A stretch of DNA of 64,000 nucleotides from Lentisphaera profundi (GTDB lineage Bacteria > Verrucomicrobiota > Lentisphaeria > Lentisphaerales > Lentisphaeraceae). Positions 4,544-44,381 of this stretch are shown in pieces. The DNA lies in contig NZ_CP117811.1 of the NCBI RefSeq assembly GCF_028728065.1, positions 248,001 through 312,000 on the forward strand. The letters are read 5' to 3'. The stretch's first letter is position 1. Each line of letters opens with the position of its first letter. Position numbers and translations under genes: made by a program. The notes beneath the pieces are model-generated. The model worked only from the letters and a program-made list of their open reading frames with translations, ran no database searches and was not told the origin of the DNA.

Positions 4544-6153
4544 GTAACGAACTTACAGAACTTAGAGCCGAGTTTCGGCGCGTAGCGAATGAGCTCAAAC
4601 GCATGGCACTTATGATCGCAAGTGCGGATCTAGCTTCCTTATTAATCTTTGCCTTAATCAGTTTTTTTGTACTCGATTATTTGGGCCATTTCCCCTTTTT
4701 CATGCGATTGGTGATAATGCTGGGGATTCTTGTCTCGCTAATTTATTATTTTAAAAGAAAACATCTTCAGAATTGTGTTCGTACATATAGTGAAGAAGAA
4801 GCGTCTTTAATAGTAGAAAAACATTTTCCAGAATTCCGGAGTCGGGCGATTTCTACTTTGCAATTTAGCCAAGGAGAAATGGGTAAACAAGTCTCGCCAC
4901 AATTAGTGCAAGGGATGATGGGGCAAACTTTTGCGATGTCGACAGGCTTGAGATTTAGTGACGCAATCGATAAAACTTTTTTTAAAAAGAATATAAAAAA
5001 GTTATTTATTGCCATGGCTCTACTCATGGCCACAATAATACTGGCGCCTAATGCTTTTGGTGTTTTTTGTCAGCGTTTGATTACTCAGGTCAAATATCCA
5101 ACAAAGACAAAATTCGTAGAAATTAACTATCCTGATTATGTTATTGAGGGGGAAATTTTTTCAGTGGAGATCCTAGTTGAAGGTGAAATTCCACCTGGTG
5201 GTACACTGATCCTAGAGAACGAGGGTGATGACGTCAATTATGAATTAGAAAAAGGTGACAAAGCCGGGGTTTTCCAATGTGAAATACCCTCTGTACTCAA
5301 TCCGATTAAGTTCCTCTACAAATTAGGAGACTACAAGAGTGAGATTCACTCAGTCTCCCTTCACAAACGTCCAAGGATTGCAGACTTAAAAGTGCATGTC
5401 GAGCCTCCCGCGTATACGGGTTTAACTGCTTATACAGAAAATTCTGGAAATCTGCAAGTCCCCCAAGGATCAAAAATAAGTTTCGAGTTTAAGTCAAGCA
5501 AAAATATTGAATATCTAAAATTGACCAGGCGAGATGAATCAGCCATGGTCTTTACTGGACAAGGAACATCGTGGACTATGGAAACAGTAGCCAACTCTAG
5601 CTTAACTTACAGTTTCAAAATGTTGGATGAATTGGGTTTGGAGAGTGTAAAATTGCCTCAGTTTCGGCTCAAGGTTAAAGTCGATCAAAAAGCTGTGATT
5701 CGCTTAATTGAACCCCAAACAATCTACGAACTTTCACCCTTAAGTAAAATGCGTATCGAAGCTCAGGTAGATGATGATTATGGTCTAGAAAAAATCGTAG
5801 TGCAGTACAAAATATCAGAAAATAGTGACTTTGCCGATGAACTTCAGACTTGGGAAGAATGGGGCTCAGTCACTGATATAGAAAATAATTCATATTTACT
5901 CAAGAAACTATGGGATAATAAAAAGCTAGAACTAAAGAAGGGACAGAGTCTGAGTATTCGACTGATGGCACTAGACAATTCACCCAAGAAACACGAAAGT
6001 TATTCAGATGAATTGACTATTCCGATTATTTCAGTGAGAGAACTCAAAGCGCGACTCGCAGGAGATTTTTTAAATACCATTGAGCCAGTTGAAGATATTC
6101 TTCTTAAACTCAATGACGTTAAACGTAAAACTGATCGACTAGGGGAAAAATGA
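4540..6153 (+). CDS. DUF4175-like membrane protein
   Basis: A 537-residue protein with two membrane helices near the N-terminus (about 22-45 and 50-68) and a third at about 150-170. A mostly beta-rich extracytoplasmic part follows to the C-terminus. The layout, and its place between a VWA gene and a glutamate/lysine-rich coiled-coil gene, resemble DUF4175 proteins; here the long coiled-coil tail is a separate gene. The family has no established biochemical role. It is joined to both neighbours by ATGA overlaps. The family name is a moderate-confidence call made from architecture. Confidence 0.6.
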   Translation: MSNELTELRAEFRRVANELKRMALMIASADLASLLIFALISFFVLDYLGHFPFFMRLVIMLGILVSLIYYFKRKHLQNCVRTYSEEEASLIVEKHFPEFRSRAISTLQFSQGEMGKQVSPQLVQGMMGQTFAMSTGLRFSDAIDKTFFKKNIKKLFIAMALLMATIILAPNAFGVFCQRLITQVKYPTKTKFVEINYPDYVIEGEIFSVEILVEGEIPPGGTLILENEGDDVNYELEKGDKAGVFQCEIPSVLNPIKFLYKLGDYKSEIHSVSLHKRPRIADLKVHVEPPAYTGLTAYTENSGNLQVPQGSKISFEFKSSKNIEYLKLTRRDESAMVFTGQGTSWTMETVANSSLTYSFKMLDELGLESVKLPQFRLKVKVDQKAVIRLIEPQTIYELSPLSKMRIEAQVDDDYGLEKIVVQYKISENSDFADELQTWEEWGSVTDIENNSYLLKKLWDNKKLELKKGQSLSIRLMALDNSPKKHESYSDELTIPIISVRELKARLAGDFLNTIEPVEDILLKLNDVKRKTDRLGEK

Positions 6154-7934
6154 TGAAGACTGAATTTTTGTTGATACTTTGTATTTTGTTATCTGCGATT
6201 ACTTTTGCGGATGACGCAAAAATCAGAGAATTACGTCAGCAGACGGCGAATACACGCCAACTCAAGCGCAGCACGATGAATGTAAAGAAAAATTTACTTG
6301 AAGTGAGAGAACGCATGCTGATGTCGGGTGTCATTGATGAATCGATGATTGATGTAGTGGACATAGTTCTTTTAGAAGCGGATAAGGCCGGCACAGACGC
6401 GTTGCAGGCGGCGATAAAAAATTTGGTCCTTGCGGGAGATGATAGCAAGCAAAAAGAAAAATATTTAGAAGCTGCTTCGAGTGAGCAAAAGCGGGCGATT
6501 AATGCCTTTGAAGAAATGCTCGAAAATGCCATTGAGCAAGCGCAAAAAGAAAAAGCGCAAGCCAAAGTTAATGAACTCATTGAGCAGGTCGAAGAGCTGA
6601 ATAAAGAGACTAAAAAAGGTGAGCATCGCGATTTAGATGAAAGCGAGCTACAAAAATTAGCCGATAAGCAAAAGCAAGTGAGTGATAAAGCTCAGCAACT
6701 GGAGAAATATTTAGAAAAACTCGAACAAGCAGATAAAGATAAAATTGAGAAAATCGAGGAAGAAGATCAGGGGCAAAAAATTCTTGATGAAAAAGAAGCT
6801 CTTGAAAAAGCCTCGAAAAAAGGTCAAGAAAAGCAAGACTCTACGGGTGAGGATAGCAAAAATGACTCAGAGAAAAACTCAGAGAAAAACTCAGAGAAAA
6901 ACTCAGAGGGAAATAAAGATGAGGCCAAAGATACTAAGGGAGGAGAACAGGCTAAAGATCCTAAGGGAGTAGAACAGGCTAAAAATGACTTAAGCAAAGA
7001 TGCCGTGGAAGCCCTCGCGGAACAATCGGATGAAATTGCCGAGCACTTGGAAGATGGGAATATTGCGGAAGCAGCAAAGCAACAATCAGATTTATTAGAG
7101 AAATTAAAGAGCATGAGCGAAAAAAATAATGCTGAGTCGCCTGAATTAGAGGACTTGAATGCGGAACAGTTCTCGGGGGAAGATACCCAGCTCGAAGAAT
7201 TAAAAGCATCAATAGAAGAACAAATTTCCCAATTAGAAGAATTAGAGGCGGAAGCGTTGGAGGGTCAGGATTTAGAAGACTCAGAAGCTTTTGAAGAAGC
7301 TCAAGCCAATCATCAAGAACTCAGTCAATCCGACAATAGTGAACTAAGTGAGGAACTGCAAGCGAGTCTTGAAGAAGCTGGAGAGAGCCTTGAACAAGGC
7401 AATATTGAAGAGGCCTTAGATAAATACGAAAAAGCAATGGAATTAGCCGAGAATCAAAAAGCAAAACAAAATGAGTCGGGACAAGAGCCTTCTGAAAAAA
7501 GCTCTGATGAAGGTGAGAAATCAGCTCAAGAAGGTGATGCACCAAGTGATAGTAGCGCTGAAAAACAAGCCGCAGGGGAAAAGAGTCAGGGAGGCAAGAG
7601 CCCTGGTAAGGGTCAAGGAGAAAAACAAGCTTCCTCCGAAGGAAAAAAATCAACTGGTGGACAACAAACACCCACGGCCCAAGGCGGTAAGCCACAAGCC
7701 TCTAATACACCCGGTCAAACAGCTATGCCTAGTGACAAAGCACGTGAGGGTGGCAAAGGATCATCTGAAATGTCTAATTCATTAGCCAAAGCAGACTATG
7801 CGAAGAAGAAAGCTTGGGAGAAAGAATTTGATCAATTCAAAGGGCAAAAAATGCAGGGGAAACTCCAGCAGGCACCAGAAAATTATAGAGAGCTAGTGAA
7901 ACAATATTACGAAGCTATTGCGAGGCAGAAATGA
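6150..7934 (+). CDS. Secreted coiled-coil, low-complexity protein
   Basis: A 594-residue protein with a signal peptide (MMKTEFLLILCILLSAITFA). The rest is highly charged: predicted coiled coil at about 75-270 and 280-460 (rich in E, K, Q, A), an (EKNS) tandem stretch near 242-255, and a Gly/Ser/Gln-rich linker at about 465-560. The last 40 residues are more ordered and end YRELVKQYYEAIARQK. It resembles the detached coiled-coil half of a DUF4175 protein and is probably a structural partner of the preceding membrane protein. Two start codons stand in tandem at 6150 and 6153; the first overlaps the previous stop. Confidence 0.7.
   Translation: MMKTEFLLILCILLSAITFADDAKIRELRQQTANTRQLKRSTMNVKKNLLEVRERMLMSGVIDESMIDVVDIVLLEADKAGTDALQAAIKNLVLAGDDSKQKEKYLEAASSEQKRAINAFEEMLENAIEQAQKEKAQAKVNELIEQVEELNKETKKGEHRDLDESELQKLADKQKQVSDKAQQLEKYLEKLEQADKDKIEKIEEEDQGQKILDEKEALEKASKKGQEKQDSTGEDSKNDSEKNSEKNSEKNSEGNKDEAKDTKGGEQAKDPKGVEQAKNDLSKDAVEALAEQSDEIAEHLEDGNIAEAAKQQSDLLEKLKSMSEKNNAESPELEDLNAEQFSGEDTQLEELKASIEEQISQLEELEAEALEGQDLEDSEAFEEAQANHQELSQSDNSELSEELQASLEEAGESLEQGNIEEALDKYEKAMELAENQKAKQNESGQEPSEKSSDEGEKSAQEGDAPSDSSAEKQAAGEKSQGGKSPGKGQGEKQASSEGKKSTGGQQTPTAQGGKPQASNTPGQTAMPSDKAREGGKGSSEMSNSLAKADYAKKKAWEKEFDQFKGQKMQGKLQQAPENYRELVKQYYEAIARQK
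6866..6909 (+). repeat. 12-bp tandem repeat coding EKNS units
   Basis: A 12-base unit (CTCAGAGAAAAA) is repeated almost perfectly three to four times in frame, giving NSEKNSEKNSEKNSE in the coiled-coil protein. Because the unit length is a multiple of three, copy-number change would keep the frame. Confidence 0.85.
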
Positions 7935-33806: not shown

Positions 33807-35423
33807 TTATAGTTCTGTTTTGAATAGTCCTGTGGGAAGGCCTTCTTTGTTGTATAGGTTGGCTCCTTCTGGATTAGAGGCCCAGGCATAGCGAACTTCG
33901 ACAGGCTGTGAAATTTCAGCGTGGCTAACTTCTACCTGATTTGAAGAGATAATTTTTGCCTCAGCCCATTGCCAAGCTCCATCAGCAGCACAAATCTGAA
34001 AGCTTTTTAGGGGGGAACTATTTTCTTGTACAGCTTTATGTAGTTCTTTGCTGGCAGTCATTAATCCCGAGCCTGTGTTATCGAAAGTGATAATGACTTT
34101 ATTCGCTTTGACTTCGTGGGATTTATATGTCGGGCCGCTATGAATGACATCCTCTTTTTTATAGGATTTATTAAGTGCCCAAAAGGCCAATCTTTTACCC
34201 GCATCAATTTTATTAATGGGGTGAATATCGGCTGCATCACCAATATCGTTGAGTACGGCCATACCAGAATTTGGGAGGCTCATACATTGGCTTTGTTGGT
34301 ATTGAATTTGAACCCAAGTACTCGCTTCGGCAGGTTCTAGGAGCGGTTTTTTAAATTGCGCGAGTTGGCACCAATAAAAATCCAAAGGTAAATCCCATGC
34401 CTGGCGCCAGCCCTGGATCATTTTTGTAAAACGTTTTTGGTATTGATCTGTTGCAAAACCCGCATTGGCTTCCCCTTGATACCAAATGGCGCCTTTCATA
34501 GCGTAGGGGACCAGTGGGGCAATCATGGCATTATAGAGTGTGGAGGGGAGAGTATTATTTTCATCGGGGTTTTTCTGTAGGCGGGGATAATGGGGGCGTT
34601 TTTTACCTTCGACGTTAGCTTTCTCTGCGGCAATTTTATGAGCTTCGATTTTTGCTTTGTTTTCAGCAGCTACTTTTTCTTTATCCCAAGTGGATAGGGT
34701 TTGATTTAGCTTTGCGATCTCCGCATCATAATATTCTTTAAGTTCATTATCACTTTGGTATTGCGCCGTGGGTATCCAAGCTTCCACGCGGGTTCCTCCC
34801 CAGGCGCACTTAATGAGGCCAACGGGAATATTTAATTCTTTGCGAAGTTCGCGGCCAAAATTAAAACCTACGGCAGTGAAACCTTTAACAAAACGTTGAT
34901 TAGCTGGATACCAAGTACCCACTATGTTTTCTTTTTCATTTAGTGGGGATAATTCGCGACGAACAGTCATTTGGCGAAAGAGTGTATCATTAATATCCTT
35001 AATTTCTTCATTCATGAAATCGGTAATAGCTTGATACTTGGGGTTCCTGGGTTTGCGGCAAACGCCACCGAGGCCAAAGTCCATATTGGATTGACCTGAG
35101 CAGAGCCAAACTTCACCCACTAAAATGTCGTCAATACTGAGAGTTGTTTCACCATCGGAAATAGTCATGGAACGACTGTCACTGGAAGCAGGCATGGACT
35201 TGAGTGTGACCATCCACTTTCCTGTGGAATTAGTTTGTGAACTTTCTTTCTGTCCAGCAAAAGAAACACTGATCTTTGAACCAGGCTTAGCCCAGCCCCA
35301 AACAGGGACGGCTTGATTTCTTTGCAGGACAGCACCTTTACTAAAGAGCTGGTGAACTTTAATTTCAGCTTGTAGGGAGAAACTGCTGAATAATAAGAAA
35401 AGAGTGAAGAAGAGCTTTTTCAT
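33807..35423 (-). CDS. Secreted sialate O-acetylesterase
   Basis: A 538-residue SASA-family enzyme with a signal peptide (about 1-19). GQSNM (S112), WYQGEANAG and a catalytic-type His in DIHPINK are all present. Compared with its paralogues it has an extra lysine/alanine-rich helical insert at about 235-285. It is the first gene of the minus-strand esterase run. The two-part element is not seen upstream of it. The substrate is inferred only at family level. Confidence 0.9.
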   Translation of the reverse strand: MKKLFFTLFLLFSSFSLQAEIKVHQLFSKGAVLQRNQAVPVWGWAKPGSKISVSFAGQKESSQTNSTGKWMVTLKSMPASSDSRSMTISDGETTLSIDDILVGEVWLCSGQSNMDFGLGGVCRKPRNPKYQAITDFMNEEIKDINDTLFRQMTVRRELSPLNEKENIVGTWYPANQRFVKGFTAVGFNFGRELRKELNIPVGLIKCAWGGTRVEAWIPTAQYQSDNELKEYYDAEIAKLNQTLSTWDKEKVAAENKAKIEAHKIAAEKANVEGKKRPHYPRLQKNPDENNTLPSTLYNAMIAPLVPYAMKGAIWYQGEANAGFATDQYQKRFTKMIQGWRQAWDLPLDFYWCQLAQFKKPLLEPAEASTWVQIQYQQSQCMSLPNSGMAVLNDIGDAADIHPINKIDAGKRLAFWALNKSYKKEDVIHSGPTYKSHEVKANKVIITFDNTGSGLMTASKELHKAVQENSSPLKSFQICAADGAWQWAEAKIISSNQVEVSHAEISQPVEVRYAWASNPEGANLYNKEGLPTGLFKTEL

Positions 35424-35739
35424 AGATGAATCCAGGTTTGATTAGGGTTTTTAATTAAATTTGATGATGGAGCTTTCACTCTCGCTGATTTTGGAGTTAG
35501 TAATCATATCACGGGTTTTATTATCGATCACGAAGTCACCCAAGTACCGCCTTGGAATTGAACCGAGATGCGTTTTATGAGTGTCATAGCTTTTTCCAAA
35601 CGTTTAGATTTTCATACTTATTTAAGGATAAACAAAAATAATTTTATGTTTTTGATTCTAGTTTGAAGAAAAGGCCTAAATAGCGAAGAATTAGCGTGTA
35701 GCCACATAGTTTATCATGACAGATGAAATCTTTTTGTGC

Positions 35740-35810
35740 CCTTCCTCCAGAACTCAAAAGTAACTCTAATTACTTTTGCTAAAGTAATAGCTAATCGCAT
35801 TGCAGTATGA
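35740..35810. repeat. Degenerate dispersed repeat, copy 2
   Basis: CCTTCCTCCAGAACTCAAAAGTAA and following bases match 27430-27500. It lies in the 438-base gap between the esterase cluster and the lipoprotein gene; nothing else recognisable was seen in that gap. Confidence 0.55.
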
Positions 35811-35861
35811 AAACTAAAGAAATATACTGGGGCTTACATATTTATAAATAGGGAGATAGGT

Positions 35862-38723
35862 TTGAAAAAAATAATTTTATTGCTCGTACTAAGTTTAGTA
35901 TTCAGCTCTTGTGGTGAGAAAGACAATGTTACAAAAGAAAAACAGGGAAGTACGGCAGAAACAGTAGTACAAATCCCTGAAATTGATAAAAGTGGTCCTT
36001 TCTTAGCGGCAAAACTCTCAATCACCCAGGCGATTGAAACGATGACAAGGGAGAACCCAAAGGCCGAGTCGGATGAATCATTTAAAATGGCAAAGTCTGC
36101 CATTGAAAACTTCCAAGCAAGTGAAGTTACTTTATTTCTTTCAAGTGGGGAAGCTTTACCCCAAGCCTCGCTACTCATAAAGGCCAATAAGGAAAAGCTA
36201 CAAAATCTTGATCAGCACCCACTGCTAAGAGCGGTGCTTATCAAAACGGAAGAAAATCTCTACAGCTTCAAAGAAGAACTCATCCCTAAAGAGGCAAAAG
36301 ACTCCTTGGGTCCTTACCAATTAAAAATTGAAAACGACTACGCTTTACTCATTCCAAAGGGAAGTCAACTTACTCTAAGCGCACTACAAGGCAGCTCAGC
36401 TTACATGAAAGCGGATGTTCTTTTTCAGAAAAATAACAGCATTTCTCTGACTTGTATCATTCCTGATGAACTCAACTTTAATCTATCGGATATCATTCTA
36501 AAAAATGAAGCCATCGGCGGAAATCGTATGGCAGAGCAAATCTGTAAAGTATTTGATGGACTCCTAGATCAGTTTAAAGACTCAGTTGAAAAAATTGATT
36601 ACTTCACCCTTGCCGTCAATATGGCTCCTGAAAATATTCAGCTTGAGTTAGAACAGCAATTTCGCGATAATTCAGTGGGTTTGAATACACACGCGGCCCT
36701 CACTGGTGATTCTCAAGAAATGGACTTCGATTTTGTCTCTGATATCAAGGGCGTCCTAGCAACGGATAAATTACAAAAAGATTTTAGCTACAAAACGGGC
36801 CTACTCAAGGGCTCCTTCTCCTGGAAAAAAGAAGACTCTCAATCCGTGCTCAGAAATCTCGGAGGGCTCATTATGGGCAGTGTTTTTAATGTTCCAGATC
36901 CTGTCGCTAGTATTGGTGAGATTGAAGTCGCTTATGAGACAGATACTCCGGAGATCAGCGACATAGCACAAATCAAAAAAGACCTCCCGAAATTGCTCCA
37001 GAATGCGGCCTTTCCCGATAAATTTCACGGCTCTTCAGAGCAGCTCACAGTTCACTTTGAAGAGATCCCAGGCTTTGGCTTTCGCGGCAATAGCTTAAAA
37101 TACGAACTTTTAGAGCTCACTGATAAGTCTGGGACTGTTATCCCTCTTAAAGCTAAAGAGAAAAATTCCTCTGATACCTTCCAGTCATTTATCTGGATCA
37201 AATTTGCTGAAACACTCAAAGAATTCGAAGCAGGGAAACTTAAAATAAAACTCATTAGTGAAGTCGCCCCAGTGATTGAAAAGTTTGAATTTAAAAAGGG
37301 TGAAAATGACAAAGTAATCAAAAGTAAAAATGCTGCGGTAAAACTCGCTTATATCGATAGGGACGCGGTCAAAATATTAGTTAAGGGCCCTGATAAAGTC
37401 AAAGTTGTTGCCTATGATAAAGCGGGGAAGGTACTCAAGAAGAAATCGGTTAACGGCTTCTCTCAAAATACAAAAGCGAAATACATGGGTGAGGTAGAGC
37501 GCATAAAAATTCTTGTGTTTGGTGAAAAACAAAATATTGAAGTCGTCACCATGCTAGATCTAAGCCCTATTGAGCTCGCCAAAGAACCAAGTGATGTGAA
37601 GCGAACACGTAAAGGTTATAAGGGTACTTTTTATGATGACTTTTCATTAAGCGAGCTGAAAAAATTAAAGGTAATTAAAGAAGAAGATCCCAGACGTGGA
37701 ACACGACTTTTTATTGACCTCAATAAGAAATCACCTAGTTTAAATGCCGAGTGGAACCTCTTTGCCATGAAAGATAATAAAGTGGAAAATCTAACAACTT
37801 CATCAAATGCTTATAATGGTGAAATGAGCTGGTCTATGCGTAAATACAAAGATCATAATCCTTTCACTGGCGCGATCACGTTCAAAGTAAAAACGGGTGT
37901 TGACCTGTTTGAGTTAACAGCTCCCAAAGGCGGGACAAGCACCTCCATACGTACTAAAGCTGGCATAGAAATGAAAGTGAAGTTTGACAAAAATCACGTC
38001 ATTATTACGGCTCCCAATATGCGCCGGGACAATTTTACGGCCTATGACCTAAACGGCACAATACTTAAATTCGATACCCAAAGAAGTGAAAATAAAAAGA
38101 ATGTCTCGACCACGACTTATGTTTATTGGGGAACTGTTGCTAAGATTAAATTTCAAACCTCGACTGAGGAAGTCGAGCATACTTTATTCTTTGACTTAGC
38201 ATCAGATGTGGATCCGAAAATCATCAAGAAAACAAAAGAGGGCTTAGCTCTTCATACAAAATTACTGGATACCTTGAAAATCATCAGAAGTGCCCGTAAT
38301 GCTCACCCCGTTTCCTATGGGGATAATCTGTCCTTCTTACATTATTCGAATCAATCGATCTCAAAAGCAATTGCCGACTCTGACCCCTTAGGCGCGGTTT
38401 CCTATGGCTATACGCTCACGCCATTTAACGGCTATAAGTTCACCCTTGCCGAAGGAAAAATAAACTATAGTAAGAAAAAAGAGGCTTTTGCTAACAAGTA
38501 TCCCCGCAAAAAGAAACTCACCATAAATGGTAAAGAAATTGAAGTGAATGCTTATTCAGGCTCATATAGTTTACCCTATATTGTTGCCTACCCAGTCGAT
38601 AAAACTCAAGCGACTTATTTCATGACTGGCAATGAGATTTTTTGGAAAGTTACTTCTGAAGACCTCAGTTACTTTCCACAAAATGGTCGTGATGATGGTT
38701 GGAATCGCCTTTACATAAAGTAA
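35862..38723 (+). CDS. Large putative lipoprotein, unknown function
   Basis: A 953-residue protein with a lipoprotein-type signal (LVFSSC, Cys17; the -3 residue is Phe rather than Leu, so slightly atypical). Two beta-rich modules look like an internal duplication: about 485-570 (KVVAYDKAGKVLKKKS, then RIKILVF) and about 690-785 (NFTAYDLNGTILKFDT, then KIKFQTS). The last 120 residues (GYTLTPFNGYKFTL to IVAYPVD) recall DUF2950-like proteins, an inference from pattern. It stands alone on the plus strand, with GGGAG upstream of the start. No function is assigned. Confidence 0.6.
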   Translation: MKKIILLLVLSLVFSSCGEKDNVTKEKQGSTAETVVQIPEIDKSGPFLAAKLSITQAIETMTRENPKAESDESFKMAKSAIENFQASEVTLFLSSGEALPQASLLIKANKEKLQNLDQHPLLRAVLIKTEENLYSFKEELIPKEAKDSLGPYQLKIENDYALLIPKGSQLTLSALQGSSAYMKADVLFQKNNSISLTCIIPDELNFNLSDIILKNEAIGGNRMAEQICKVFDGLLDQFKDSVEKIDYFTLAVNMAPENIQLELEQQFRDNSVGLNTHAALTGDSQEMDFDFVSDIKGVLATDKLQKDFSYKTGLLKGSFSWKKEDSQSVLRNLGGLIMGSVFNVPDPVASIGEIEVAYETDTPEISDIAQIKKDLPKLLQNAAFPDKFHGSSEQLTVHFEEIPGFGFRGNSLKYELLELTDKSGTVIPLKAKEKNSSDTFQSFIWIKFAETLKEFEAGKLKIKLISEVAPVIEKFEFKKGENDKVIKSKNAAVKLAYIDRDAVKILVKGPDKVKVVAYDKAGKVLKKKSVNGFSQNTKAKYMGEVERIKILVFGEKQNIEVVTMLDLSPIELAKEPSDVKRTRKGYKGTFYDDFSLSELKKLKVIKEEDPRRGTRLFIDLNKKSPSLNAEWNLFAMKDNKVENLTTSSNAYNGEMSWSMRKYKDHNPFTGAITFKVKTGVDLFELTAPKGGTSTSIRTKAGIEMKVKFDKNHVIITAPNMRRDNFTAYDLNGTILKFDTQRSENKKNVSTTTYVYWGTVAKIKFQTSTEEVEHTLFFDLASDVDPKIIKKTKEGLALHTKLLDTLKIIRSARNAHPVSYGDNLSFLHYSNQSISKAIADSDPLGAVSYGYTLTPFNGYKFTLAEGKINYSKKKEAFANKYPRKKKLTINGKEIEVNAYSGSYSLPYIVAYPVDKTQATYFMTGNEIFWKVTSEDLSYFPQNGRDDGWNRLYIK

Positions 38724-38773
38724 GCGAGATAGGCGTGCCTGAGATGATTCACTTGTCTGAGGCGCGTTGAAGT

Positions 38774-38801
38774 CATCATCAATGATGATGGGATTTTGAC
38801 T
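38774..38801 (+). terminator. Possible terminator after the lipoprotein gene
   Basis: Stem CATCATC-AAT-GATGATG (38774-38790), with a possible outer AGTC/GACT closure and a TGTTTTT tract just after. It sits about 50 bases after the stop. The T run is not immediately adjacent to the inner stem, so support is moderate. Confidence 0.4.
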
Positions 38802-38899
38802 GTTTTTCAGTATCTATTTATACCCTGAGGTATGCTGTTTTTGTAGATCCCTTTATGAAGGCCTTATCCTTAGTTGACAAAATTCACTAGGAATGAAAA

Positions 38900-40189
38900 A
38901 TGAATTATTTATACCTTTTTTTATTTATATTATCACTTGATATTTTTGCTAAAGAAGATAGCTACAGCTTATTTATTAAAGCCTGTGAATCTACGAAAAT
39001 TCTTTCAGAATCTTGGGAAGATGATTTTAGGGATAGACTAAATGATTGTATTAAGAATCAGACCGAAGCTAGTGTAGAAATATCAAATCAACTGCTAAAA
39101 GCAAAGCCGATTTTAGATATGATTCGCCAAGCTCGAACAAAAAAAGAATGGAATTCACCTGACCCTAGAAAAGGGGATTTAAATTCTGCCTATCCAGAAA
39201 TTCAGTATTGGAGATATTTAGGTGAATTAGCGACAGCGAGTATACAAGAAAAAATCAGACATAATAAATATGATGAAGCAATGGATATCTATATAGATTT
39301 TAAGACTGTAGGGACTTTATATAGCAAAAACAACATTATAATTCCATACTTACTTAAATATGCGATAGAGAAAAAAATCTTATTGAATAGTGACATGTCA
39401 TTTTTAGATAAATGCTCTTTATCATATTTTCCGGTATTAAAAGAACTCATCGATAAAACGACCATTGAGCAATTTTTAATGGGAGAAAAACACCATTGTA
39501 TTAATACGATTAAAAATATGGCTTTCGTAGATTTAGCGGATACTCAGCAAGCTTTAATTAAAATTCTTATTGAAAATGAATATGATCAAAAATTGATAGC
39601 TAAGGTTGAAAAAGGAGATTTATTATCAATTAAGCAGTGGGAAAAAATTGCCATTAAAAACTATCTACAAAACTACGATTACCGTATGAAACTATATCAA
39701 ACAACTGCACCCAATAAACTTCGGGCCCTTGGGGATAAATTAGAGAAAGAAGAAAAGAGTGCAAAACAAACAGATGAGTTAATTAAAACATGGCAAGATA
39801 AAATATCTAAGATCAATAAAAATGATGTTACGCAGCTCCAAGAACTACAAAAAAATGTTGGAGAGGAAATTAGTCTTATTTTAAATAGTATGCTCTTACC
39901 TGATCTAGGAGGTGCGATCATAAAATTAAAGGAATATCACTCCTATGAGCGCTTAGTTTTAATACGGATGGCTCAAAGAGTTTATTTCAATAAAACACAA
40001 ACAGCAGCTAAAACCTTACAAGACCTCATTGATCAACAAATTTTAGAAAAAGAAATGATCATTGATCCTTTATCGCAAAAAGAATTTTTGCTTAATGAGC
40101 AAAACCAAGCTTATGGCGTGGGGCCAGATTTTGATGATGATTTAGGAGTCCCATATGATAGGCATAAAAAAAGTGGCGATATCATTTAG
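38900..40189 (+). CDS. Secreted protein of unknown function
   Basis: A 429-residue, mostly helical protein with a signal peptide (MNYLYLFLFILSLDIFA). The helical body runs to about 350. The C-terminal end has the pattern QxLExEMIIDPLSQKEFLL ... YGVGPDFDDDLG, which matches a recurring planctomycete ending (DPFSGxPLxY ... YSVGPDGxDDGG) found in otherwise unrelated exported proteins. The family is not recognised. It follows the lipoprotein gene on the same strand with a 176-base gap. Confidence 0.55.
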   Translation: MNYLYLFLFILSLDIFAKEDSYSLFIKACESTKILSESWEDDFRDRLNDCIKNQTEASVEISNQLLKAKPILDMIRQARTKKEWNSPDPRKGDLNSAYPEIQYWRYLGELATASIQEKIRHNKYDEAMDIYIDFKTVGTLYSKNNIIIPYLLKYAIEKKILLNSDMSFLDKCSLSYFPVLKELIDKTTIEQFLMGEKHHCINTIKNMAFVDLADTQQALIKILIENEYDQKLIAKVEKGDLLSIKQWEKIAIKNYLQNYDYRMKLYQTTAPNKLRALGDKLEKEEKSAKQTDELIKTWQDKISKINKNDVTQLQELQKNVGEEISLILNSMLLPDLGGAIIKLKEYHSYERLVLIRMAQRVYFNKTQTAAKTLQDLIDQQILEKEMIIDPLSQKEFLLNEQNQAYGVGPDFDDDLGVPYDRHKKSGDII

Positions 40190-40293
40190 CGCCTTAGAGA
40201 TTAAATACCTTAAGGGAAATCACCCTTAAATTAAGAGGTAGAAAGCAATTGAATTTCTAATCTGTCTGAGCTACGCTGAAAATAGGCAGGCGA

Positions 40294-40456
40294 TTAAATT
40301 TGTTCTTGAAAAATTCCCTGAGCGGAGACTTCGGCATCAATTTGTTTCAGTAGAGGATCAATGAAATCATTGTATTCGGCAATGGTTTTTTTCATTTCGT
40401 CAGATCTGCCACCATACTTTTTCATAGTTGTAATACGTGCATCCCATAGTTGACGT
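40294..40456 (-). pseudogene. 3' remnant of a second sialate O-acetylesterase gene
   Basis: Codes 53 residues (RQLWDARITTMKKYG to AQGIFQEQI) that align without gaps to the extreme C-terminus of the intact esterase at 42630-44381, with about nine differences. The similarity continues past the stop (CGCTGAAAATAGG on both). The rest of the gene is missing; the short-repeat array begins where it breaks off. The divergence suggests an old paralogue that was later destroyed. Confidence 0.85.
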
Positions 40457-41611
40457 TGGGGATGTTGTCTGAGACGGGGGTGTTGTCTGAGAGTAACCAT
40501 AAAGCAGGAGGGATGATATTGTCTGAGACGCGGGATGATATTGTCTGAGGGATGATATTGTCTGAGGGATGATATTGTCTGAGACGCGGGGAGGGATGAT
40601 ATTGTCTGAGAGGATGATATTGTCTGAGACGCGGGGATGATATTTTTATTTGTTTTGTTATAAACAGTTTATGAATAAGGATGATATTGTCTGAGACGCG
40701 GGGATGATATTTTTATTTGTTTTGTTATAAACAGTTTATGAATAAAGAAGACTCAGTTTTATTGCTAATAAATTTGCACTAATAAAAGATGGCAGTCTTT
40801 GTCTGAGACGCGAGGATAATAATTTCATTGGCAGTCTTTGTCTGAGACGCGAGGATAATAGTCTTTGTCTGAGACGCGAGGATAATAATTTCATTTGTTT
40901 TGTTATAAGCAGTTTATGAATAAAGAAGAATTGATTTTATTACTAATAAATTTGCACTAATAAATTTGCACTAATAAATTTGCACTAATAAAAGATAGCG
41001 TATTTATTGTCTCTAATGAAAGGAGATAATTATGAAACGCAGTTTTGATTTAGAAAGTGATGTGGTTTTTTATCATGTTATCATAAAAGTGCCCGATAAT
41101 ACTTATGGAAATAAAGCCTATGCCTTTGATCGAGCTCATAAAACTAAGTTAAGAGAGATCTTTTTCTGCTTAGAGAGCCTCTATGAAGCGCCTTTCTCCC
41201 TTAGCTTTGAGGGATGATATTGTCTGAGACGCGGGGATGATATTTTTATTTGTTTTGTTATAAACAGTTTATGAATAAAGAAGACTCAGTTTTATTGCTA
41301 ATAAATTTGCACTAATAAAAGATGGCAGTCTTTGTCTGAGACGCGAGGATAATAATTTCATTGGCAGTCTTTGTCTGAGACGCGAGGATAATAGTCTTTG
41401 TCTGAGACGCGAGGATAGTCTTTGTCTGAGACGCGAGGATAGTCTTTGTCTGAGACGCGAGGATAATAGTCTTTGTCTGAGACGCGAGGATAATAATTTC
41501 ATTTGTTTTGTTATAAGCAGTTTATGAATAAAGAAGAATTGATTTTATTACTAATAAATTTGCACTAATAAAAGATAGCGTATTTATTGTCTCTAATGAA
41601 AGGAGATAATT
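40457..41611. repeat. RAYT-associated short repeat array with nested duplications
   Basis: Nineteen copies of TTGTCTGAG (twelve at 40465-40873, seven at 41220-41481), most extended to TTGTCTGAGACGCGAGGATA or TTGTCTGAGACGCGGGGATGA. GTCTGAGAC is a short palindrome. Spacing varies from 17 to over 100 bases. A larger unit (40679-41188) is repeated at 41212-41768 and includes the transposase 5' end. AATTTGCACTAATA is present three times in the first copy and once in the second. The spacing is irregular and there are no unique spacers, so it is not CRISPR. Confidence 0.85.
41032..41188 (+). pseudogene. Truncated 5' copy of the RAYT transposase gene
   Basis: The first 52 codons of the transposase at 41612, with the same leader and GGAG ribosome site, differing by one base. 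It breaks off at CTATGAAG and runs directly into 24 bases identical to the inside of the nearby esterase gene, then the repeat array. The near identity points to a recent duplication. Confidence 0.9.
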
Positions 41612-42202
41612 ATGAAACGCAGTTTTGATTTAGAAAGTGATGTGGTTTTTTATCATGTCATCATAAAAGTGCCCGATAATACTTATGGAAATAAAGCCTA
41701 TGCCTTTGATCGAGCTCATAAAACTAAGTTAAGAGAGATCTTTTTCTGCTTAGAGAGCCTCTATGAAGTGCAATGCGTAAACTATTGCATCATGAGTACT
41801 CATGCACATTTTGTAATACGTCGTGATCGAGAATCGAAATTGACTTTGAAGCAGGTGGCGTATCGTTATAAGAAATATAAATCACTAGGGTATGTTCCAG
41901 ATGCTAGACTTGGTGAAGTACACAAATTTGCCAAGCGTTTAAATGACATGAGTGACTTCATGGCGAACGTGCAAAAGCGTTTTACTTTTTGGTATAATCA
42001 ACAATTTGAAAAGAATAGAAGAGGGCAACTTTTTAACCATTGTTACAAGGCAATTCAGCTCAAAAATACGAAAGCCTTGATCCGTTGTCTGCAATATGTG
42101 GAACTCAACCCACTACGCGCACAGATGGTAAGTGACTCAGCTGATTATGAGTTTAGTTTATGGGGGATATTTGTAGGCTTAGTGAGCGAAAAAAGGCTCT
42201 AA
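41612..42202 (+). CDS. REP-associated tyrosine transposase (RAYT, IS200-like)
   Basis: A 196-residue Y1 transposase-family protein. The HUH motif is MSTHAHFV and the catalytic Tyr is probably in CLQYVELNPLRAQMV near the end. Such enzymes cut single-stranded DNA and act on REP hairpins around their gene. It is preceded by AGGAG six bases before the ATG and by the repeat array. The frame ends at a run of six A (42189-42194); the next frame continues with plausible protein for 92 more codons, so this copy may be a frameshifted version of a longer enzyme. Confidence 0.85.
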   Translation: MKRSFDLESDVVFYHVIIKVPDNTYGNKAYAFDRAHKTKLREIFFCLESLYEVQCVNYCIMSTHAHFVIRRDRESKLTLKQVAYRYKKYKSLGYVPDARLGEVHKFAKRLNDMSDFMANVQKRFTFWYNQQFEKNRRGQLFNHCYKAIQLKNTKALIRCLQYVELNPLRAQMVSDSADYEFSLWGIFVGLVSEKRL

Positions 42203-42471
42203 AGAGTGGGATTATTAAGGCTCTCAAGGACTTTGGGATGGAAGAACAGAGTGATGCGAAATTATTTAAAATTTATGCGAGTGATCTTATTCGGATTCAT
42301 CAATTTATAAAGAATGGTTCAGAAATCCTTGATAAAGAACTCATAGAGTTATTACTCAAGCGGCAGGCCTTTTGGTCAAGTGCACGAACGATAAGTATTT
42401 TTAAAAATGAAGTTATTGTGGAGAAAAAAAATAACTCAATTATTTGTGTGAGTTCTGAATTTCCTGGATGA
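42196..42471 (+). pseudogene. Out-of-frame C-terminal extension of the RAYT transposase
   Basis: In the -1 frame the sequence reads KALKSGIIKALKDFGMEEQ and on to SSEFPG, with no start codon of its own having a good ribosome site. Joining the frames at the A6 tract gives a continuous protein of about 286 residues. Either one A was lost, or slippage on the tract makes the long form. Confidence 0.6.
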
Positions 42472-42629
42472 GTCCATTCAGGTCAAAGAAGTGCTTGTAC
42501 CGTAACAATATCCGGGCGATTCTAGGATCTCCCGTTAAAATGGGATTGCTTACTGTTACAGAACAAAAGCAGATTCTGAGCCCTTTAATGAAAGGGCTTA
42601 TCTGAGATCCGCTGAAAATAGGTAGACGA

Positions 42630-44381
42630 TTAAAATTTTGTTTGAAAAATTCCCTGAGCGGAGACGTCGGCATCAATTTGTTTCAGTAGAGGGTCAATGA
42701 AATCATTGTATTCGGCAATGGATTTTTTCATTTCTTGCGAACTAGAGCCATACTTTTTCATGGAGGTAATACGTGCATCCCATAGTTGACGTCGCTTTGT
42801 TTCCATTTCTGGATTGAGGTGCTGATCATGAATTTTAATGAGCTGACGTTTTTGTGCCAAGGTCATTTTTATTTTGCGAAGAGTAGGTGAGAGAAAGAGG
42901 TTACGAGCGTAGACTTTGGCATCATCCGGATTGAATTTGATCTCAAAGGAATCAGTTCTAAAAGGTGAGCAGGGCAAGTCGACTGAGTTATAAAGATTGG
43001 CATAAGGGAAACCCTTGTAAGCGTAGCGAAGAGCAATGGGTTTTTTGACTTCAGAGCAAGTGACTTCTACCGAATCGCCCTTGATTTTAGCTGCTGCGGG
43101 GTAGAAAACTTGATCTGTCCCAGCGAGCTCAAAACCCTGAAGTTTATTTTGATTAAGCATGGTACCATCCAAATCGACTGTTTTCGCTTTGAGGCCTTTT
43201 GCGCTGTGCGCAAAACTGACGATGAATTTATTGCCTTTAATTTCATGACTCTTATAAAGCGGGCCACTGAATTCAATTTTTTCACCATAGGCGATTTTTT
43301 TTGCTGCGAGTAAAAGTCGTTCACTGACTTCAATTTTTTGAGGTGGGTGAATATCGTGTATCATGCCTAAATCTATCGCGACCGCCATACCCGTATTCTT
43401 GAGTTCAAGTGCGGCGCTTTGCGCATCTCGCAAAACGGGGTAGGTGATGCCGTGTTGATAAGGGTTGCGCTCGTAACTGGCGAGTTGAACAAAGAGGAAG
43501 GGCATGTCGGGATCTTTAAATTCATGACGCCAGCCTTCAATCATAGCTTTGAAAGTTTTTTCATATTGCTGAGCTTTTTGAAGATTGATGGCATCGCTTT
43601 CACCTTGGTACCAGATGACACCCTTGATAGGGAAACCATGGGCGTATGAGCCAATCATAGAGTTAAACATATTACGAGCTGGGCGCCTTTCTCCCTTAGC
43701 TTTGAGAGCATGAGGAGGCTCCCATAAGCTAATAAAGCTTCCACCCCTATTGGCGTCGATGAGGCCAATGGGGATCTGTAGGTGATGCTGAAGTTTTTTT
43801 GCAAAGACGAAGCCCACGGCAGAACTTCCCAGGATGAGTTCCTTGTTGTCGCTCGCGTTCATCCATTTTCCTTTATAGGCCTTATCTTCGGCAAAGGGGA
43901 CATCATATTGATCGGGAAGCGTGGAGATTTTGTTCATTTTTGCTAGGCGAATTTTATCGTAAGAGGCAAAGTTATTAACGATGGAGGTGTACTCTTTGTG
44001 GGGCTTACGGCCCCAATTGACGTAGGAACGTACATCGTAGTCCATATTAGATTGTCCACCGCAGAGCCAGATATCACCGACAAGGATATTTTCGAGTTCA
44101 ATTTTGTTATTTCCCTGGATAGACATTTTGTGAGGGCCACCCGCTTTAAGGGGGTCGAGCTTGAGGCTCCATTTGCCAGAAGAAGCCTTAGTCTCATGCT
44201 TTTGACCAGCAATTTCTACACTTATCTTTTCACTATTATCGGCAGTGCCCCAAACAGTGACGGCTTTATCCCTTTGGAGCATCATGTCACTGGAGAATAT
44301 TTTGGAAACCGTGACTTCTGCACTTAGAGATAAGGCCGATGAGCAGCAAGTGATCATAGCGAGTGTTTTTAATAATTTCAT
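42630..44381 (-). CDS. Secreted sialate O-acetylesterase with C-terminal helical extension
   Basis: A 583-residue SASA-family enzyme with a signal peptide (about 1-21). GQSNM (S111), WYQGESDA and a catalytic-type His in DIHPPQK are present. Beyond the usual end (about 490) it has some 90 extra residues, mainly charged helix, that also survive in the broken paralogue at 40294. It begins 15 bases after the GH89 gene, so the two are probably co-transcribed. Its likely task is to clear acetyl groups that block the glycosidase (inferred). Confidence 0.9.
   Translation of the reverse strand: MKLLKTLAMITCCSSALSLSAEVTVSKIFSSDMMLQRDKAVTVWGTADNSEKISVEIAGQKHETKASSGKWSLKLDPLKAGGPHKMSIQGNNKIELENILVGDIWLCGGQSNMDYDVRSYVNWGRKPHKEYTSIVNNFASYDKIRLAKMNKISTLPDQYDVPFAEDKAYKGKWMNASDNKELILGSSAVGFVFAKKLQHHLQIPIGLIDANRGGSFISLWEPPHALKAKGERRPARNMFNSMIGSYAHGFPIKGVIWYQGESDAINLQKAQQYEKTFKAMIEGWRHEFKDPDMPFLFVQLASYERNPYQHGITYPVLRDAQSAALELKNTGMAVAIDLGMIHDIHPPQKIEVSERLLLAAKKIAYGEKIEFSGPLYKSHEIKGNKFIVSFAHSAKGLKAKTVDLDGTMLNQNKLQGFELAGTDQVFYPAAAKIKGDSVEVTCSEVKKPIALRYAYKGFPYANLYNSVDLPCSPFRTDSFEIKFNPDDAKVYARNLFLSPTLRKIKMTLAQKRQLIKIHDQHLNPEMETKRRQLWDARITSMKKYGSSSQEMKKSIAEYNDFIDPLLKQIDADVSAQGIFQTKF

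Follow-up and report, generated by a model that had tools for sequence, protein, structure and literature searches.

The 64-kb window (the whole stretch of DNA that was analyzed) contains a SASA-type esterase gene (42630 to 44381) that, in the sister genome G002, directly adjoins the next gene. Here, the two are separated by 7.2 kb (35424 to 42629) comprising, besides a repeat array and a transposase gene, a lipoprotein-like open reading frame (ORF) of 953 amino acids and an ORF of 429 amino acids with no match to a Pfam family above the cutoff. The 3′ end of the esterase gene recurs, truncated and diverged, on the − strand at 40294 to 40457, with 80% amino acid identity to residues 527 to 581 of the esterase. 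The DNA of this fragment is visibly nearer to its own gene than to the orthologue of the sister species. The fragment breaks off exactly at the start of the array and is preceded by a REP-like unit (40258 to 40457 for both). This fragment may be an earlier outcome of the type of event described below. Short tandem repeats of 12-mer and 27-mer units at 6865 to 6983 of the window are unrelated to the array.

The transposase gene (41612 to 42202, + strand) is preceded by a conserved leader of ~130 nt (41461 to 41611, + strand), which was delineated by leader alignment, is matched by model R2, and ends in a GGAG ribosome-binding site. Its product is a protein of 196 amino acids that has lost its C terminus. 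A 1-nt frameshift lies in a run of five G residues (42162 to 42166), and the remainder of the C terminus is carried by a second frame (42160 to 42471, + strand), which aligns with residues ~188 to 282 of a paralogue. The protein contains a Y1_Tnp domain (PF01797; E value, 3.1e-7; 31 bits for a cutoff of 23), and its HUH motif (MSTHAHF) and tyrosine region (WYNQQF) align with those of the paralogues. An AF2 model of the paralogue at locus L033, built on ten sequences and with a mean pLDDT of only 70, had as its top PDB match 4er8, a RAYT with a REP hairpin (E value, 5e-4; TM score on the target, 0.60), followed by ISDra2. The domain, the motifs, and the predicted fold support the assignment of the transposase as RAYT-like, as proposed in the preliminary description, although the Y1 gene that the latter placed downstream of the array is itself frameshifted (196 amino acids versus 268 to 282 in intact paralogues). 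NCBIfam model NF047646, the RAYT equivalog, returned E values of 1e-12 to 1e-13 with 47 to 51 bits, below the cutoff of 80; by these scores, the window protein is related to that family but is not an equivalog. The intact paralogues are located at C1:214069 and, for three more, at C2:1419-1426 kb. There are five or six transposase paralogues in total, three of them within a 7-kb cluster, unlike the single-copy, nonmobile gene of a classical REPtron. Copies B and C of the cluster are identical at 99 to 100 of 100 aligned bases per block across the element and have a common left start but unlike right ends. At L035 (G000 C2:1416500-1429000), arrays of 22- to 23-nt repeats (GCGCTCGTTCCGAGCTTGGGTG and TGCTGCCACACGGGCGGATAG) were observed beside RAYT copies, as was a fragment resembling the end of a nearby tRNA-Leu gene (1585-1667).

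Upstream of this RAYT-type Y1 (HUH) transposase gene, TTGTCTGAG is present in 19 exact copies at 40465 to 41481, all on the + strand, and the window contains one more, at 38753; shuffled sequences gave an expectation of 0.39 copy for the whole 64 kb. Fourteen of the 19 copies continue as TTGTCTGAGACGCG, and their spacing is uneven (17, 18, 22, 24, 27, 36, 39, 67, 112, and 355 nt). A-type units (40458 to 40790, + strand) consist of the tag GGATGATATTG (or GGGATGTTG) followed by TCTGAG and have lengths of 17 to 27, 67, and 112 nt. B-type units, with the tag GGCAGTCTTTG or AGTCTTTG, occupy 40791 to 41031 (+ strand) together with a copy of the transposase leader. A 14-nt repeat (ATTTGCACTAATAA, 3.6 copies at 40942 to 40992) is found in this first leader only and resembles plain slippage. 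Next to it, a truncated transposase 5′ end is caught in the array (41032 to 41187, + strand; repeat D4; protein match to residues 1 to 54, 96%). The preliminary description had noted 19 irregularly spaced units ahead of a Y1-type transposase gene and nested duplications of the array and of the transposase 5′ end, and both observations were confirmed.

The largest of these duplications has a period of 533 bp. Its first copy (40679 to 41187, + strand), made of an A unit, B units, the leader, and the transposase 5′ end, is repeated at 41212 to 41771 with a single substitution across the aligned bases and different unit numbers. Both copies start exactly at the tag (40679 and 41212), and the first stops inside the transposase gene, thereby generating a transposase fragment of 54 codons (41032 to 41193). 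The array portion of the second copy (41212 to 41481, + strand) contains an A unit of 112 nt, and six B units (spacing of 39, 27, 24, 24, and 27 nt, followed by the leader unit). Relative to the first copy, the second has gained 75 nt, corresponding to three additional 24/27-mers, whereas the first has 28 nt, or two 14-mers, more than the second. The duplication is recent and, since changes in unit number outpaced point mutations here, the array was unstable until recently. The junction between the two copies is filled by 24 nt (41188 to 41211, + strand) that are an exact copy of 43683 to 43706, located ~2 kb downstream inside the esterase gene and in the same orientation (+ strand), a match expected by chance with a probability of about 4e-8 genome-wide. 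The sequence of this filler is that expected from a polymerase template switch, which an extending 3′ end jumping ahead on its template would leave and which slippage does not produce. A second filler-like stretch lies between units at 40491 to 40509 (GAGTAACCATAAAGCAGGA); within the window, a search for its source returned only its own copy.

The unit is a non-palindromic REP-like sequence of ~30 nt with a consensus of about G[AG]T[AG]A[AG]CT[CT]G-TCTGAG-ACGCGYTAAAAATA. The 5.46-Mb genome has 26 exact matches to TCTGAGACGCG. A sequence model matched 49 sites in that genome (E ≤ 10, mostly clustered) and 20 and 5 sites in two other Lentisphaera genomes, one of them L. marina; because the model was trained on many of the same copies, these counts describe the family and are not independent proof of it. 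The search that the preliminary description had advocated returned related units at other sites of the genome as well as in two sister species, and the absence that it considered adverse was not borne out. The units cluster mainly near the RAYT paralogues, with a few gene-free spots (L036, L074, L107, and L110). L036 has gene-free arrays of leader units with the tag GATTTCACTTG at 2540 to 2890 and 5484 to 5600, the second of which apparently interrupts an ORF. Around the window gene, all REP-like units are on the + strand, with zero reverse units at 35400 to 42700. They include three units detected by model R1 outside the array, all on the + strand: a weak solo unit between the 953- and 429-amino-acid ORFs (38748 to 38771; C1:286748-286771; E value, 0.09), AATCTGTCTGAGCTACGCTGAAAATAGG at the left edge of the duplicated esterase fragment (40258 to 40284; C1:288258-288284; E value, 0.015), and TTATCTGAGATCCGCTGAAAATAGG, in the orientation of the array, between the transposase and esterase genes (42594 to 42620; C1:290594-290620; E value, 0.006), the last two of which align with each other. 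About six of nine repeat regions have the unit on the lagging-strand template inferred from sampled GC skew, which is too few to conclude. In the same sampling of G000, the skew reversed at about 1.6 Mb on C1 and at about 1.4 Mb on C2, which suggests that C1 and C2 are two replicons, each starting near base 1.

Dispersed copies of the unit keep only GTCTGAG, and the GAC half varies. Since GTCTGAG is constant and the following bases are variable, the palindrome GTCTGAGAC, previously put forward as the recognition site, is not the conserved feature, and we rejected it. No consensus hairpin was found among 18 units, the leaders contain a 4-bp mini-stem devoid of covariation, and a search of units and leaders for conserved hairpins, such as the subterminal ones at both ends of IS200/IS605 elements, returned none. 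The units also lack the GTAG head (GTAG or GTRG) that defines classical REPtrons, and their number in the genome, 49, is below the >100 dispersed REP copies of that definition. Other assignments were likewise rejected: a CGTC-tagged REP family (some copies have CTCGTC and others TTGTC or CTGTC, and the 8- to 9-bp stem is absent), a CRISPR-like array (there are no unique spacers), and a promoter array (9 promoters were found for 6.2 expected).

The geometry of the duplications was measured as the extent of homology on either side of TCTGAG for every pair of neighboring copies, with upstream and downstream values read by hand from pair alignments and ambiguous overlaps assigned to the tag. Seventeen duplications were scored at seven loci (the window, L033, L035, L036, L066, L107, and L074). 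In 14 of these 17 tandem duplications, several of which are nested and hence not fully independent, homology stopped 10 to 12 nt upstream of TCTGAG. Downstream, it ended anywhere from +3 to +99 nt, and at >400 nt in the 533-bp event. At the level of loci, eight of nine starts fell inside a 3-nt window (P = 2.5e-5 under a uniform distribution of starts across 20 nt). The exceptions were an L107 event, whose start lies only 2 nt ahead of TCTGAG, and some B units, for which this distance is 8 nt. Overlaps at the junctions between units were 0 to 3 nt, i.e., almost no microhomology. The ten bases before TCTGAG were common within a locus and unlike between loci (GGATGATATTG, GGCAGTCTTTG, TTATAATCTG, GATTTCACTTG, GATGAGCTCG, GGTGAACTCG, and GGGTTGTCCTG), indicating that the copies were made locally. 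An origin of the tags as target-site duplications was rejected by inspection, as the left and right tags of one element differ (L071 to L073). Neither the combination of a fixed start and a ragged end nor the templated filler was found described in the literature that we searched, the coverage of which was incomplete.

Exact tandem duplications were present within 500 bp of 9 of the 21 RAYT genes of the genus versus 9 of 399 background segments of equal length (Fisher P = 1e-8), one of the nine RAYT loci, L035b, being an unrelated 22-mer array. A second group of RAYTs, of the GGGGACAG type (L052, L064, L065, and L071 to L073), has comparable duplications that start ~6 to 13 nt outside the core and have ragged ends; this group was measured less cleanly, some loci being blurred, because intermediate partial units interfere. 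The duplicated left-end unit of L071 includes the transposase 5′ end, like that of the window. Similar duplications, also starting ~6 to 13 nt outside the core, were found among wider relatives in other Lentisphaerota (L168 to L170), in a phylum search with few usable flanks that yields no frequency. L071, L072, and L073 (sister species) and L076 are TIRYT-like RAYTs of the GGGGACAG type with right-end duplications of 14 to 18 nt.

These data bear on how REP, BIME, and REPIN arrays come to be formed next to RAYT genes. In the window, the boundaries of the units, their local origin, their near-blunt joints, and the filler are direct observations, and the explanation that we favor, at about even odds, is that the array consists of stacked copies, aborted or self-limited, of the left terminus of a single-strand (HUH) mobile element of the RAYT type, produced by nicking, extension, and rejoining. 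The RAYT, either the window protein prior to the frameshift or an intact paralogue supplied in trans, would nick the strand carrying the tag and TCTGAG at the outer boundary of the tag and would remain bound to the 5′ end. The free 3′-OH would prime rightward strand-displacing synthesis over a few to several hundred nucleotides, and the extended 3′ end would then attack the protein-DNA bond and reseal the strand. Each round would add one tandem copy of the first n nucleotides of the element. Unequal exchange or slippage could later alter the count of identical units, and strands that are released with this fixed 5′ end might also give rise to solo units at other sites. From the sequence pattern we infer the nick, its strand and position, the identity of the enzyme, and the order of the steps. 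Counting against this reading, the adjacent RAYT gene is frameshifted, so that any activity has to be supplied by paralogues or to have preceded the mutation; the deviating starts at L107 and of some B units, the nesting of the events, and the blurred measurements at some GGGGACAG-type loci weaken it as well. HUH enzymes leave a 5′-phosphotyrosine and a 3′-OH, which may prime replication, and such priming by the 3′-OH of a RAYT nick has been proposed earlier (PMC2817692, PMC8266576).

Support for nicking, extension, and rejoining comes from the fixed left and ragged right ends, the local tags, and the near-blunt junctions, together with the filler, the start of the 533-bp event at the tag, and the enrichment of tandems at RAYT loci. 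The duplications of the GGGGACAG-type group, the left start shared by copies B and C, and the match of the predicted fold to RAYT and IS200/IS605 proteins are additional support. Fixed-start, ragged-end units and a 24-nt filler are the footprints expected of nick-primed synthesis, and the tags, each specific to its locus, indicate where cleavage would take place, a position testable in vitro. More tentatively, RAYT-type transposases might, as a matter of routine, carry out only part of a replicative cycle at their own termini, and this local reaction, rather than transposition or slippage, may give birth to REP/BIME-like arrays. If so, its signature would be a fixed outer start, a ragged inner end, near-blunt joints, and an occasional template-switch filler.

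The most serious alternative, albeit an unlikely one, is plain replication slippage or unequal recombination between short repeats that happen to lie close to a relic transposase gene, in which case the transposase would have no role in growth. The counts of identical 24/27-mers and 14-mers differ between the halves of the 533-bp duplication, and tandem repeats are found elsewhere in the genome too (14 arrays in 797 kb). Growth of the 24/27-mers and 14-mers counts against nicking and extension to the extent that slippage explains it equally once a repeat existed. However, slippage fails to predict many unit lengths with one start and junction homologies of 0 to 3 nt, and it leaves aside the enrichment of tandems at RAYT ends and the comparable start distances in the second RAYT group. 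The preliminary description had envisaged expansion or slippage at a single-stranded cut site. The recent stages of growth are visible, and a nick at a fixed site would fit the data well, but simple slippage alone does not account for them; it probably added identical units afterwards.

According to a less probable scenario, proposed for some REPIN clusters, the RAYT excises single-stranded REP-like units and inserts them repeatedly beside existing copies at a hot spot. Solo and leader-only units away from RAYT genes (L036, L074, L107, and L110) and the presence side by side in the window of A- and B-type leaders with unlike tags are in keeping with such insertions. Nonetheless, the 10-nt tags match within the array and differ from those of other loci, so that most copies come from the same place, and the ragged units have no defined right end. 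In the BIME model of Nunvar et al. 2010, a whole module is amplified by rolling-circle replication. This process is likewise RAYT-driven and replicative (PMC2817692) and could have produced the tandem 43-mers of L066 (three copies) and the 24-mers, but it predicts a constant period; we regard it as very improbable for an array with periods of 14 to 533 nt and nested ends. An assembly or sequencing artifact is slightly less credible still: the region is repetitive over 1 kb and the frameshift sits in a G5 run, but the genome is in two contigs of 2.81 and 2.65 Mb, the units are unlike in both sequence and length, and other loci, as well as assemblies of other species, show the same geometry. Least probable is that selection maintains the array to regulate the transposase gene: despite its location in the conserved leader of that gene, promoters are not enriched by the above count, similar arrays occur without a gene (L036), and the window gene is frameshifted.

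Repeat arrays beside RAYT genes are already known (PMC2817692, PMC3116915). Of the rayt genes examined, about one in three adjoins BIMEs (PMC2817692), and in P. fluorescens SBW25, each of the three RAYTs lies next to REPIN clusters (PMC3116915), so that the initial premise, a few flanking REPs as the normal state of a RAYT gene, falls short of what has been published. The window resembles REPtrons (Nunvar 2010, PMC2817692; Corneloup 2021, PMC8266576) in the Y1/HUH RAYT-like sequence and fold, in the short repeats near the gene, and in the capture of a gene end between repeats (3′ ends in BIMEs and the 5′ end here). It differs from them in that the repeats are direct rather than inverted, have neither a GTAG head nor a conserved palindrome, and number about 50, in that the genome has several RAYT paralogues, including three that closely resemble one another, and in that the units have one fixed and one ragged end. 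The REPIN clusters of SBW25 (Bertels and Rainey 2011, PMC3116915) also form higher-order clusters beside each RAYT, with a unit that includes flanking sequence, and a second mechanism of formation was inferred for them. However, they are ordered clusters of nearly identical inverted REP doublets with hairpins, whereas the units of the window are single and direct and vary in length. TIRYTs (Di Nocera 2013, PMC3733652; subclass 2.1 of Quentin 2018, PMC6006769) are the counterpart of the genus relatives L071 to L073, which have GGGGACAG-type terminal inverted repeats and comparable end duplications. The long terminal inverted repeats of TIRYTs, which contain GGGG[AT][CG]A[CG] and are present at L071 to L073, are absent around the window gene, whose subfamily has a TCTGAG core instead. 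One-ended rolling-circle transposition of IS91 and Helitron elements, in which strand displacement proceeds from an HUH nick, generates one precise and one ragged end. The window differs from these elements by a Y1 transposase with no helicase and by copies that are mostly in tandem at the donor site, but its array likewise has one precise and one ragged end.
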